Shown piece by piece: positions 12,144 to 56,992 of a stretch of DNA of 64,000 nt (position 1 is its first letter; each line of letters starts with the position of its first letter). Made by a program: the position numbers and the translations under genes. This DNA comes from Nitrospirota bacterium (lineage in GTDB: Bacteria; Nitrospirota; Thermodesulfovibrionia; Thermodesulfovibrionales; SM23-35), in the NCBI GenBank assembly GCA_013388455.1, contig JACAFF010000005.1, positions 62,001 to 126,000 of the forward strand, read 5' to 3'. The notes under the pieces are model-generated. The model saw only the letters and a list, made by a program, of their open reading frames with translations. It searched no databases and was not told where the DNA came from.

Positions 12144-12494
12144 TGGTGGAGGCGGCGGGAATTGAACCCGCGTCCGAAAGTACTACTCTCAGGCTTCTAC
12201 ATGTTTATCCTGCTTTTTCAATCTCGGATGATGAACCGCCAGCAGAAAGGCTTTTCACCATCCCATCTCTTTAAATCTTGCCTTAAGATAAAGAGAAGTC
12301 TCTTAAGGCCAGCCTGCTTTATGACACTGACACCTGAAACACAGACAATTTCAGGGCAGCGTGCTGCTTAGTTATTTAAGCAGCAAGTGCCAGTTCGTTA
12401 TTGGCGTTTGTGTTTGTTTCCGCCTTTTTACGTGGTGACGGAGCCACGACATGCAACCTGATCCTCGTAACCCCCGTCGAGCCCTTTCGCCCCC
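12144..12494 (-). ncRNA. ssrA: Transfer-messenger RNA
   Basis: One-piece tmRNA of 351 nt. The ends pair as a tRNA acceptor: GGGGGCG at the 5' end with CGCCTCC plus ACCA at 12144-12154. The T-arm GGGTTCAATTCCC and the 5' GGGCTCGAC segment are recognisable. The tag reading frame (12423 down to 12376) reads AETNTNANNELALAA then TAA, with the ALAA end recognised by ClpXP-type proteases. It lies 18 bp downstream of smpB on the same strand. Two apparent ORFs crossing this stretch are not genes. Confidence 0.97.
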
Positions 12495-29883: not shown

Positions 29884-31254
29884 TTAAAATGAGAGTGCCA
29901 GTCCATGAATTAACTGTGTTACTTGTTCTTCGTCAACACCAAAAGCATCATGGTAGAACTCGCCTGAATCGAAATACCCTGCTTCTACAAAATAGCTGAG
30001 GTTCTTTGCAAGTTTGTAATTAAGCTTTGCATCAACTTCCCATCCAACAGTGCTGTCAACGTCATCACCAACTGTATCTTCCCATGCTCCGGTCTCTGTT
30101 GCCCAGAGGTAGTAACCATCGAGTGATAAGCTGAGGTCCTTCATTGGTGATACATCAACCCCGAGGTTGATGTATGTAGTGTTTGCAATACTGGTGTTTC
30201 TTGCATTACCACCTGATTCTGTTGTCATTACTGCATTCCATGAGGCTGTACGAACTGTGCGCTCATAAATCTGTGTATAATGCACAAGCCTTGCTGTTGG
30301 TCCATAGTCAGGGCCCTGAAGGGTCTGGAATTCTTCACAGTCGTTATCGTCGGCATCATCATCACCGCTACCCATAGCAAAAGCTCCTCTAATAGTCACA
30401 GGATCAATTGTATATCCTAATTTTGCAAAGATTGCCCATCCTTTTGGGTCTACATCACTGCCAGAAAAATTATAATTTTCTATTTCACCGAACTGATAGT
30501 CAAGTTCTGTTGCAAAGGATAGTCCTGCAACTTTACCATTTGCGTGAAGACCTACATTATGGAAGTCGAGTGAATCCAAATTATTTACGGCCGATGTTGA
30601 AGGACAATTGCCATCACTATGAGCCCATAAATAATTAATACCGAATGTGATATCTTGGCTAAGTTTGTATGTGCCGATCAAAACATATCCATCAAGGTCG
30701 TCAAAATGATTGTAAATATCACCTTCATTTAGCTTTGTTACACCTGCTGCCAGATGAAGTTCTTTAACAGGGTCAATCCACACCAGAAGTGCATCATTTC
30801 CGAATCTTTCATTATTCAAGAATATTTTCTCTCCAAGCGAGATTGGCATATGACCAATCTTTAATCCTGCTGGAACACCAAACAAGCCTGAACCAATGTA
30901 TTGTATCCATGCCTGTCTTATGCGGAGATGTGTATCTGGTTTAGTATCGTAATTACCCCAGTACCAGAGTCCGCTATTTCTGCTGGTTCCAGAAGCTGTT
31001 TCAATCTCAACCATACCACGCACGTTGTCATCAACTTTTGCATCAACAGTAAGGTTTACATTTGAATGCCAGAATGCCTCAGAATCTGTATCAACTGGCA
31101 TAAAGTCATTGGCTGGATCAGCATTCTTAATATACCAGCCTTTTGTAATTATCTTTCCGCCAAGTGTTATTTCTGGTGCATCCATGGCATAGGCGGCAAT
31201 TGAAAAACATAAAACAAAAATTATGGCTGAAAGTATCGCCAAATATTTTTTCAC
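29884..31254 (-). CDS. Outer-membrane beta-barrel porin
   Basis: 456-aa exported protein. The signal peptide (MKKYLAILSAIIFVLCFSIAAYA, cleaved after about residue 23) is followed by alternating-hydrophobicity beta strands and ends LIHGLALSF, with the C-terminal Phe that BAM recognises. The sequence is rich in Asp, Gly and aromatic residues at strand ends. It resembles large single-barrel porins of environmental diderms; substrate unknown. The start is GTG at 31254 with AAGGAGGG 8 bp upstream. Two tandem promoters, a ~180-nt structured leader and a strong terminator suggest an abundant, regulated protein. Confidence 0.82.
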   Translation of the reverse strand: MKKYLAILSAIIFVLCFSIAAYAMDAPEITLGGKIITKGWYIKNADPANDFMPVDTDSEAFWHSNVNLTVDAKVDDNVRGMVEIETASGTSRNSGLWYWGNYDTKPDTHLRIRQAWIQYIGSGLFGVPAGLKIGHMPISLGEKIFLNNERFGNDALLVWIDPVKELHLAAGVTKLNEGDIYNHFDDLDGYVLIGTYKLSQDITFGINYLWAHSDGNCPSTSAVNNLDSLDFHNVGLHANGKVAGLSFATELDYQFGEIENYNFSGSDVDPKGWAIFAKLGYTIDPVTIRGAFAMGSGDDDADDNDCEEFQTLQGPDYGPTARLVHYTQIYERTVRTASWNAVMTTESGGNARNTSIANTTYINLGVDVSPMKDLSLSLDGYYLWATETGAWEDTVGDDVDSTVGWEVDAKLNYKLAKNLSYFVEAGYFDSGEFYHDAFGVDEEQVTQLIHGLALSF

Positions 31255-31293
31255 TTGCTAACCCTCCTTGTTACAAAGTTTTTACAAAATTTC

Positions 31294-31323
31294 TTAATCT
31301 GACCGCCAATGACGGTCCTCCAT
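31294..31323 (-). other. Possible 9-codon leader ORF overlapping hairpin 2 of the porin leader
   Basis: ATG at 31323 to TAA at 31294 encodes MEDRHWRSD. It contains the whole hairpin at 31301-31317 and shares ME..HWR with the other leader ORF. A perfect AGGAGGTGAT lies 27 nt upstream, too far for normal initiation. It may be a by-product of a duplicated RNA element. Confidence 0.25.
31301..31317 (-). promoter_or_regulatory. Porin leader hairpin 2
   Basis: In the minus-strand RNA GACCGUC-AUU-GGCGGUC folds as a 7-bp stem with one U-G wobble and an AUU loop. In the plus strand the wobble would be a C-A mismatch, so the structure fits the porin transcript. It lies about 50 nt upstream of the GTG start. 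Confidence 0.5.
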
Positions 31324-31343
31324 GATTCTATATTTTTAAATTC

Positions 31344-31397
31344 TTAATTTATCACCTCCTCTTCAATAAGTATTAGCCTCCAATGGAGACCTTCCAT
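31344..31397 (-). other. Possible 17-codon leader ORF overlapping hairpin 1 of the porin leader
   Basis: ATG at 31397 to TAA at 31344 encodes MEGLHWRLILIEEEVIN. The ME..HWR start matches the downstream mini-ORF, with synonymous differences (GAA/GAG, AGG/CGG). An AAGGAGAT sequence lies about 19 nt upstream. Its last codons contain AGGAGGTGAT, a perfect Shine-Dalgarno sequence without a close start codon. Expression is unproven. Confidence 0.3.
31376..31390 (-). promoter_or_regulatory. Porin leader hairpin 1
   Basis: In the minus-strand RNA GUCUCC-AUU-GGAGGC folds as a 6-bp stem (one U-G wobble) with an AUU loop. Loop and closing pairs are the same as in hairpin 2 (C-AUU-GG), while outer stem pairs differ but still pair. 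Confidence 0.5.
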
Positions 31398-31483: not shown

Positions 31484-31512
31484 TTTATATCATTCTTAAC
31501 TATTTTTGTCAA
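31484..31512 (-). promoter_or_regulatory. Porin promoter, distal copy
   Basis: Minus-strand TTGACA (31512-31507), 17-bp spacer, TATAAA (31489-31484). Consensus -35 and near-consensus -10 at ideal spacing. It lies 45-46 bp upstream of the proximal copy, consistent with a tandem duplication. Confidence 0.65.
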
Positions 31513-31732
31513 GCTGAAGAATTAATTAAAGCAAAAACAAGGCCAATTATAAGAAAATTTTAAATATATCAAAATTGTTATAAAAATTAATCTTGAAAAA
31601 GAACCGAACCATTTTATTCAATATTTATAGCGTTATTTTATGTTGTTTTTTTACTACATTAGTGTAGATTATATGTTGCAATTATATAGTTTACTTTAGC
31701 TCTAAAATTAATGAAATGTGATACAATGTTGA

Positions 31733-32934: not shown

Positions 32935-34380
32935 TTATCCTTTTATCACCCCGATTGGTTTCAATCTTGCAACTTTCTTTGAAATACCTGCTTTATGAAC
33001 AACATCTACAACATTCGATATATCTTTATATGCATCAGACATTTCCTCTGCAAGGGTTTCACGTCCTGCAGATCTGACAACTATTCCTTTGTCTTCCATT
33101 TCTCTTTTTATAGAACGCCCCTTTGCTTTCTTGATAGCTTGATGTCTGGATAGCAATCTGCCAGAACCATGACATGTAGAGCCAAAAGTTTCTTTCATGG
33201 ATTTTTCAGTCCCAAGAAGTACAAATGATACCCTTCCCATATCTCCCGGAATCAATACAGGCTGACCGATTGGTCTATAAATTATAGGGAGTTCGGGATG
33301 CTGAGGTGGGAATGCCCTTGTTGCGCCTTTTCGATGTACTATTAGCTTCAAATTTTTTCCATTAACTTCATGCTCTTCGATTTTAGCTATATTGTGTGCA
33401 ACGTCGTAAATAAGGCTCATGCCAAGATTTTTGGGAGAGATACCGAATACTTTTAAAAATGTCTCGCGTGTCCAATGCATAATACACTGTCTATTAGCCC
33501 ATGCATAGTTTGCTGCTGCACGCATAGCAGAAAGATATTCCTGTGCCTCTTTGGTGTTATATGGTGCACATGCAAGTTCTTTATCAGGCAGTGCGATCTT
33601 ATATTTATTTGCAGCCCTTTCCATTACTTCGAGGAAATCACTACAGACCTGATGCCCGAATCCACGCGAACCAGTATGAATCATTACTGTAATCTGGTCT
33701 TTGAAGAGACCCATAATGTTTGCTGCTTTTTCATCGTAGATTTCATCAACATATTGAACTTCAAGAAAATGGTTGCCGGAACCGAGAGTCCCCTGTTGTG
33801 ACCTTCCTCGCTCATATGCCTTATTGCTTATTATAGACGGGTCTGCACCTTCCATGCAGCCACCTGACTCTGTTTTTTCAAGATCATCTTTATCACCAAA
33901 GCCTTGTTCTACAGTCCATCGTGCCCCTTTTATTAATATTTGTTTCTCATCTTCAGGGTTAAGGCGTATTTTTCCTTTTGACCCTACTCCTGTTGGTATC
34001 TCATTGTATAGGATATTAACTAAGTCATGTATTTTAGGAATAACCTCGTTTTTCATCAGATTGCTTTTCAAAAGACGAACACCACAGTTTATGTCATATC
34101 CTACACCACCAGGGGAAACGATCCCTTCCTTTAAATCAAATGCAGCTACGCCTCCAATAGCAAATCCATATCCTGTATGCACATCAGGCATGGCCATAGA
34201 TGAGCGAATAATTCCTGGTAATGTCGCTACATTCGCTACCTGATCTATTGACTGAAATTCCAGTTCATTTTCTAAAATTTTATCAACATAGATTATTCCA
34301 TTAACACGCATTCCTTCTTTATAATCAACTGGAATTTCTATTTTTGTATCATCAATTCTTCTGATTTTGTCGCTTAACAT
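32935..34380 (-). CDS. rtcB: RNA-splicing ligase RtcB
   Basis: GTP- and Mn-dependent ligase that joins RNA 2',3'-cyclic phosphate (or 3'-phosphate) ends to 5'-hydroxyl ends. 481 aa. Metal-binding Cys99 lies in GGVGYDINCGVR, HTGSRGFGH follows, and the guanylylated nucleophile is His404 in STCHGSGRLLSR, in good agreement with the numbering known for the archaeal enzyme. The archease cofactor gene is 37 bp upstream and a PpiC-like lipoprotein gene precedes that, all on the same strand. Confidence 0.97.
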   Translation of the reverse strand: MLSDKIRRIDDTKIEIPVDYKEGMRVNGIIYVDKILENELEFQSIDQVANVATLPGIIRSSMAMPDVHTGYGFAIGGVAAFDLKEGIVSPGGVGYDINCGVRLLKSNLMKNEVIPKIHDLVNILYNEIPTGVGSKGKIRLNPEDEKQILIKGARWTVEQGFGDKDDLEKTESGGCMEGADPSIISNKAYERGRSQQGTLGSGNHFLEVQYVDEIYDEKAANIMGLFKDQITVMIHTGSRGFGHQVCSDFLEVMERAANKYKIALPDKELACAPYNTKEAQEYLSAMRAAANYAWANRQCIMHWTRETFLKVFGISPKNLGMSLIYDVAHNIAKIEEHEVNGKNLKLIVHRKGATRAFPPQHPELPIIYRPIGQPVLIPGDMGRVSFVLLGTEKSMKETFGSTCHGSGRLLSRHQAIKKAKGRSIKREMEDKGIVVRSAGRETLAEEMSDAYKDISNVVDVVHKAGISKKVARLKPIGVIKG

Positions 34381-34417
34381 TAGTTATTATCTGCCTTTAA
34401 TTTGGAAAATATTATTC

Positions 34418-34846
34418 CTATATATCAAATATAACATCAATCTCCCAGAAATTGTTTCTTTTTTCGATTCTCAGTCTGTGATATGTTGCTGCCTTAATAA
34501 GTAGTTTTCTTTCATGGCGCTCAGGGTCAATTTCCTCACCAGAGATTTTAGCTTTAAGCTTGAATTCCTCTGTGTTGAAACTCGCTTCTTCAATGACAAT
34601 CTTTTTACCTATAAATCCATAAGCGTCAAAATAGAAAATTAGTTCATTCAGCCATGAAACGAGTAATGCATCGAGTGAATGTTTTTCTAATGAGATATTG
34701 ATAGTTTTCTTTTTTTCTATTGCATCAAGCTTTGTAATGAGACTATACATGCCAGAAGCAACATTAATAAATGCTTCTTTAAGGCTCTTACCAAAAGCCT
34801 TCAGACCTATGTCACCAGAAATATCGAGAACTTCAAATTGTTTCAT
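34418..34846 (-). CDS. Archease, RtcB activator
   Basis: 142-aa archease, a small acidic protein that speeds RtcB guanylylation and allows multiple turnover. It begins MKQFEVLDISGDIGLKAFGKSLKEAF (conserved DISGDIGL and AFG) and ends with the strand WEIDVIFDI bearing the metal-binding Asp. The family's E..H/KRRL-like segment (ATYHRLRIEKRNNFWE) is present. Directly upstream of rtcB, the classical pairing. Confidence 0.93.
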   Translation of the reverse strand: MKQFEVLDISGDIGLKAFGKSLKEAFINVASGMYSLITKLDAIEKKKTINISLEKHSLDALLVSWLNELIFYFDAYGFIGKKIVIEEASFNTEEFKLKAKISGEEIDPERHERKLLIKAATYHRLRIEKRNNFWEIDVIFDI

Positions 34847-56894: not shown

Positions 56895-56992
56895 GGGAGT
56901 GTATAGGGTTCTGGTGTCCCTCCTGGACTTCAAATCCAGTGTTGCCTGTTACAAACGGGCAGGGTGGGTTCGATTCCCACACGCTCCCGCCA
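56895..56992 (+). tRNA. selC: Selenocysteine tRNA (TCA)
   Basis: 98-nt tRNA-Sec: 8-bp acceptor GGGAGTGT/ACGCTCCC, D-stem AGGG/CCCT, anticodon stem CTGGA/TCCAG with loop CTTCAAA and anticodon TCA at 56930-56932, long variable arm TTGCCTGTTACAAACGGGCA, T-arm GGGTTCGATTCCC, encoded CCA after discriminator G. Extended acceptor and long extra arm are diagnostic. selA lies about 6 kb downstream on the other strand. Confidence 0.97.

Follow-up and report, generated by a model that had tools for sequence, protein, structure and literature searches.

Shine–Dalgarno (SD) sequences that stabilise a messenger without serving a start codon are known from a handful of leaders, mostly in Gram-positive bacteria. 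In the aprE leader of Bacillus subtilis the ribosome site is the gene's own SD, and we know of no separate start-less SD in the ompA leader of Escherichia coli. The STAB-SD of Bacillus thuringiensis cry3A is a strong SD that lies in the 5′ untranslated region (UTR), far from the start codon, and does not initiate translation (PMC4113751). The E. coli ompA 5′ UTR belongs to the mRNA of an outer-membrane protein, which is protected by a hairpin and a strong SD; the start codon is not needed, and ompA transcripts with strong SDs and no start codon remain stable (PMC7509114). The aprE leader is reported to combine a 5′ stem-loop with ribosome binding, translation being unneeded (Hambraeus 2002, cited in PMC3997798 and PMC7509114). 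Last, the work on the tisB standby site describes a ribosome contact that lies some 100 nt upstream of the start, close to structured RNA (PMC7708055).

The leader considered here precedes a porin gene in a stretch of 64,000 nucleotides (the window) from a Nitrospirota bacterium of the order Thermodesulfovibrionales. On the minus strand of the window, it consists, from 5′ to 3′, of a hairpin (P1), an SD without start codon (SD1), a second hairpin (P2), a second SD (SD2) and the GTG of the porin (Table 1). Both hairpins, the start-less AGGAGGTGAT and two mini-ORFs were found just as a preliminary description of this DNA had given them. The porin also matches the NCBIfam family DESULF_POR1, with a score under that family's cut-off. 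Relatives of the porin were found in 54 of the 61 genomes searched; the same order of leader parts recurs in most of the 27 orthologous porin upstream regions that were read, and most of the leaders displayed start the porin with GTG or TTG.

Table 1. Features of the porin locus, in window coordinates.
Feature	Positions	Strand	Basis
Sigma54-type −24/−12 promoter element, TGGCCTTGTTTTTGC (TGGC-N7-TTGC)	31531..31545	(−)	pattern count in orthologues
Distal sigma70-type promoter, CTTGACA...TATAAA (second tandem copy)	31484..31513	(−)	sequence pattern
Proximal sigma70-type promoter, CTTGACA...TATAAA	31438..31468	(−)	sequence pattern
Mini-ORF 1, MEGLHWRLILIEEEVIN, ATG at 31397	31344..31397	(−)	judged chance, unconserved
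Hairpin P1, GGUCUCC-AUU-GGAGGCU	31375..31391	(−)	RNAalifold without structure guidance, alignment A1
SD1, extended SD without start codon, AGGAGGUGAU / AGGAGGTGAT	31351..31360	(−)	near-invariant in 50 porin leaders
Mini-ORF 2, MEDRHWRSD, ATG at 31323	31294..31323	(−)	judged chance, unconserved
Hairpin P2, GACCGUC-AUU-GGCGGUC	31301..31317	(−)	RNAalifold without structure guidance, alignment A1
Weak hairpin UAAC-AAGGAGG-GUUA, SD2 in loop	31259..31273	(−)	sequence
SD2, functional SD of the porin, AAGGAGG	31263..31269	(−)	directly 5′ of GTG/TTG/ATG in orthologues
Porin gene, 456 aa, GTG start, signal peptide, beta-barrel	29884..31254	(−)	Pfam Alginate_exp, E 1.1e-17

Comparison of the leaders indicates that P1 and P2 are real, conserved RNA features. 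In an alignment of 12 orthologous porin leaders made without reference to structure (A1), the RNAalifold consensus contains no structure beyond P1 and P2, and double-sided changes occur in 8 of its 13 pairs. When the named structure is laid on A1, double-sided changes are seen in 10 of 14 pairs and 95.2% of the cells are paired, compared with 85.4% in shuffles (0 of 500 as high), and sliding the structure along the alignment leaves at most 50% paired. P1 has double-sided changes in 6 of its 7 pairs and 100% of its cells paired. In 60 leaders fitted to a covariance model, an alignment that leans to the model, all 14 pairs (including the 7 of P2) show double changes, and 92.8% of the cells pair (93.7% in P1). 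The 144 core cells in the P1 and P2 pairs comprise 129 Watson–Crick pairs, 15 G-U and no A-C; since the wobbles are always G-U and never A-C, the hairpins function at the RNA level and on the strand of the porin messenger, as had been proposed from the window's own wobbles.

The triloops are usually AUU or AUG in P1 and CUU, UUU or AUU in P2, and the 3′ end of P1 lies 13–17 nt from SD1 in most leaders. The idea that the two hairpins are a duplicated element holds only weakly: they have the triloop in common and each stands 5′ of an SD, but most relatives have unlike stems in the two. One relative does carry a genuine tandem duplication, a 67-nt repeat of 2.4 copies that holds a hairpin and a start-less SD (L011, 416-576). 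Regarding the weak hairpin around SD2, its 5′ arm is unconserved in the window's own porin family (A1), whereas stronger CUAACC..GGUUAG arms, or the variant CUACC..GGUAG, flank SD2 in other families (alignment A2).

SD1 is near-invariant (GGAGGUGAU) in 50 porin leaders and sits 69–159 nt 5′ of SD2. A start codon is found 4–12 nt past its core in 4 of these 50 leaders, compared with 32% of linker positions (binomial 5e-5, a value that ignores kinship among the leaders), and after SD2 in 50 of 50. In the window, no start codon follows SD1 at the spacing usual for an SD, which agrees with the definition of a STAB-SD as an SD-like element of the 5′ UTR that lacks such a codon. These counts show SD1 to be conserved and under selection not to initiate, and it does not have the appearance of a site at which translation starts. 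The sequence AGGAGGUGAU complements the usual bacterial anti-SD; a search of the genome assembly for the 16S rRNA gene, from which the organism's own anti-SD could be read, found none. In some of the folded leaders SD1 is predicted to pair, and its partner varies between U-rich sequence lying locally upstream and P1's 5′ arm.

Upstream of the leader, the promoters are conserved as well. Of 24 orthologous upstream regions, 19 have the pattern TGG(C/T)-N7-(T/C)TGC 5′ of SD1, and 22 of 27 have TTGACA-(15-19)-TAWAWH, each compared with 0.7% of shuffles, and the doubling of the sigma70-type promoter is also present in some orthologues. The porin may thus be under dual control, with a sigma54-type element upstream and sigma70-type promoters downstream; strong promoters such as these suit a highly expressed gene. 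Elsewhere, the window encodes an RtcB-type RNA ligase (32935-34846, minus strand), with an adjoining 142-aa ORF that is possibly an archease, a tRNA-Sec (56895-56992, plus strand) and a tmRNA (12144-12494, minus strand).

We built a covariance model of the porin leader (R1). In the window's own genome it matches the porin leader at 127 bits and no second strong copy. At E 0.01, R1 matches 97 of 176 genomes belonging to the order, and the matches inspected are mostly 5′ of the porin; on a 396-genome sample of the phylum, at E 1e-4, it matches 45 genomes of the order, plus 2 from elsewhere in the class. A few secondary matches, weak or with parts missing, were left uncounted: those at a glnA-like gene (L074), a TonB-type receptor (L087), an OmpA-like lipoprotein (L073) and a relative's hydrogenase (L089). 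A DNA-only pattern searched in 84,980 species gave 63 stretches. All 24 stretches from records titled as this phylum precede an exported porin-like start, and nearly all matches outside these 24 records fall inside coding sequence; one match, in a record titled only "uncultured bacterium" (L228), lies 5′ of a type IV pilin.

The architecture is not confined to porins, it recurs before other exported proteins, namely S-layer-like proteins and a type IV pilin. Copies with the same order of parts lie 5′ of exported proteins which we call S-layer-like from their signal peptides and composition, not from a family match (L070, L071, L072, L076 and L154-L157); two more copies of this class have an altered P2 (L152, L153). 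The stems of the class differ from those of the porin leaders (GCUAUC-AUU-GAUAGC and UUAGCC-NUU-GGCUAA). Another copy precedes a pilin (L078) and, outside the order, a leader-like architecture is found 5′ of an exported protein (L150) and of a multihaem-cytochrome-like protein (L151). An order-wide search with the pattern CATTG...GGAGGTGAT returned S-layer-like leaders together with many chance matches in coding sequence. In the window's own genome, GGAGGTGAT occurs 28 times, compared with 8 for the reversed control; start-less copies without the full hairpin set precede a pilin (L161), a small exported protein (L162) and a hydrogenase small subunit (L163). We note that upstream of this last gene, which is hydrogenase small-subunit-like (C39:44066), the start-less GGAGGTGAT is accompanied by a GGGAATA...TATTCCC hairpin, and that at another locus of the same genome (L094, C3:82637) the start-less GGAGGTGAT is followed by a sequence resembling the cobalamin-riboswitch type.

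Several functions can be considered for this leader. Each hairpin overlaps a tiny ORF with the residues ME..HWR, and the preliminary description raised the possibility of a leader-peptide attenuator, in which ribosomes translating these peptides would control the hairpins. The two in-frame ORFs do exist in the window, but no ME..HWR frame is found elsewhere among 51 porin leaders: these contain 11 CA(T/C)TGG sites, and an in-frame ATG lies upstream only at the window's two. In other words, the orthologous leaders, on which that proposal was staked, keep the hairpins and lack the frames, which, judging from these sequences, arose by chance out of the C-AUU-GG core. Neither mini-ORF ATG has an SD at normal spacing and no terminator lies 3′ of P2, which makes this attenuator barely credible. 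A Rho-independent attenuator was also rejected: P1 was flagged as one with the tail AATACTTATT, but most of the orthologous tails are not U-runs, and P2 has no U run. The GGA motifs near the hairpins had suggested a target of CsrA/RsmA. However, a search of the window's own genome, 99.4% complete, found no match to a CsrA gene, while the same search was positive in controls, and the loops of P1 and P2 are NUN, not GGA; a CsrA target is thus very unlikely. It is also very improbable that a transcription factor reads P1 and P2 as palindromes in DNA: both are indeed short inverted repeats with 3-nt spacers, but they are located downstream of the promoters, and the departures from Watson–Crick pairing in their cores are the G-U wobbles described above. 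Last, Rfam 15 gave no match at the gathering score on the window leader and none on the leaders in 12 related loci, with weak chance matches at most (E 0.7-4.4); a known riboswitch or Rfam leader was therefore rejected. The suggestion of a new structured element is borne out by the covariation, the strand-specific wobble, the conservation across the order and the absence of Rfam matches. Our search of the literature, mainly open-access, found no earlier description of such a leader; a prior report is possible.

The reading that we favour, at about even odds, is that the leader is a 5′ mRNA-stabilising or ribosome-docking element, which probably shields the messenger or keeps ribosomes loaded on it. 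A 30S subunit docked on SD1 would not initiate there but, with the help of both hairpins, would block or slow decay from the 5′ side, be it by the exonuclease RNase J or by 5′-end-dependent RNase E/G; the outcome would be long-lived mRNAs for abundant surface proteins. This stabilising role is supported by the covariation, the strand-specific wobble, the near-invariance of SD1, the depletion of start codons and the tight spacing between P1 and SD1, as well as by the order-wide R1 matches, the position of this phylum's DNA-only matches before exported porin-like starts, the recurrence before exported proteins, the strong promoters, the STAB-SD and ompA precedents and the presence of both RNase J (631 bits) and RNase E/G in the genome, which also encodes Hfq. 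Against it, two hairpins and a near-constant P1-SD1 spacing exceed what the Bacillus precedent requires, and the predicted accessibility of SD1 is not raised by its context (unpaired 0.39, compared with 0.40 with shuffled flanks), so that openness does not appear to be enforced.

Alternatively, SD1 may be a standby or loading site, from which the 30S subunit slides or passes to SD2, raising initiation at a weak GTG or TTG with little effect on decay. The presence of two strong SDs in one leader, the GTG or TTG starts of most leaders displayed and, in other families, the enclosure of SD2 in a small hairpin are consistent with this, but the distance between the two SDs is variable and a stable hairpin stands between them. 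Besides, known standby sites are of another kind; that of tisB likewise lies far upstream with structure nearby, but is a pseudoknot-dependent single-stranded region and not a perfect SD (PMC7708055). We regard standby as rather unlikely. We would say the same of a regulatory switch or trans target, by which a protein, an sRNA or a growth signal sets porin synthesis by acting on the triloops or on the 5′ arm of P1, which would pair exclusively either with its own 3′ arm or with SD1. The C-NUN-G triloops are mostly conserved, the predicted folds of several leaders offer SD1 the 5′ arm of P1 as an alternative partner, Hfq is encoded, and the architecture is common to a set of exported-protein genes; a switch would account better than a simple dock for the pairing of SD1, locally or with this arm, that is predicted in some leaders. 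Against it, the local P1 is strong and pairs nearly always, no ligand-like core is conserved, the P2 stems are mostly invariant within the porin class, and the stems of the porin and S-layer-like classes are wholly different.

If the leader is a stabilising or docking element, it would work like the STAB-SD of cry3A and the aprE and ompA leaders. With the STAB-SD of cry3A it shares a remote, non-initiating SD, an abundant protein and a genome encoding RNase J. It differs in that two covarying hairpins frame SD1, which stands before several exported-protein genes and is conserved across a Gram-negative order, and in that stabilisation is here what we infer. The likeness to ompA concerns the kind of protein and of protection, and no sequence or structural homology is claimed. 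The difference from aprE is that the present leader has a second, dedicated SD. Tentatively, and with the balance tilted against it, we propose an undescribed class of RNA leaders of the order's abundant exported-protein genes (porin, S-layer-like, type IV pilin), in which a dedicated non-initiating dock between two hairpins would set the life or the output of the mRNA, and where SD1 and P1 possibly compete for the 5′ arm of the latter. Such a leader would add a structured RNA absent from Rfam release 15, and its order-wide occurrence before outer-membrane and surface proteins, together with selection against start codons past SD1, would suggest that non-initiating docking is a strategy both used and maintained in Gram-negative bacteria.
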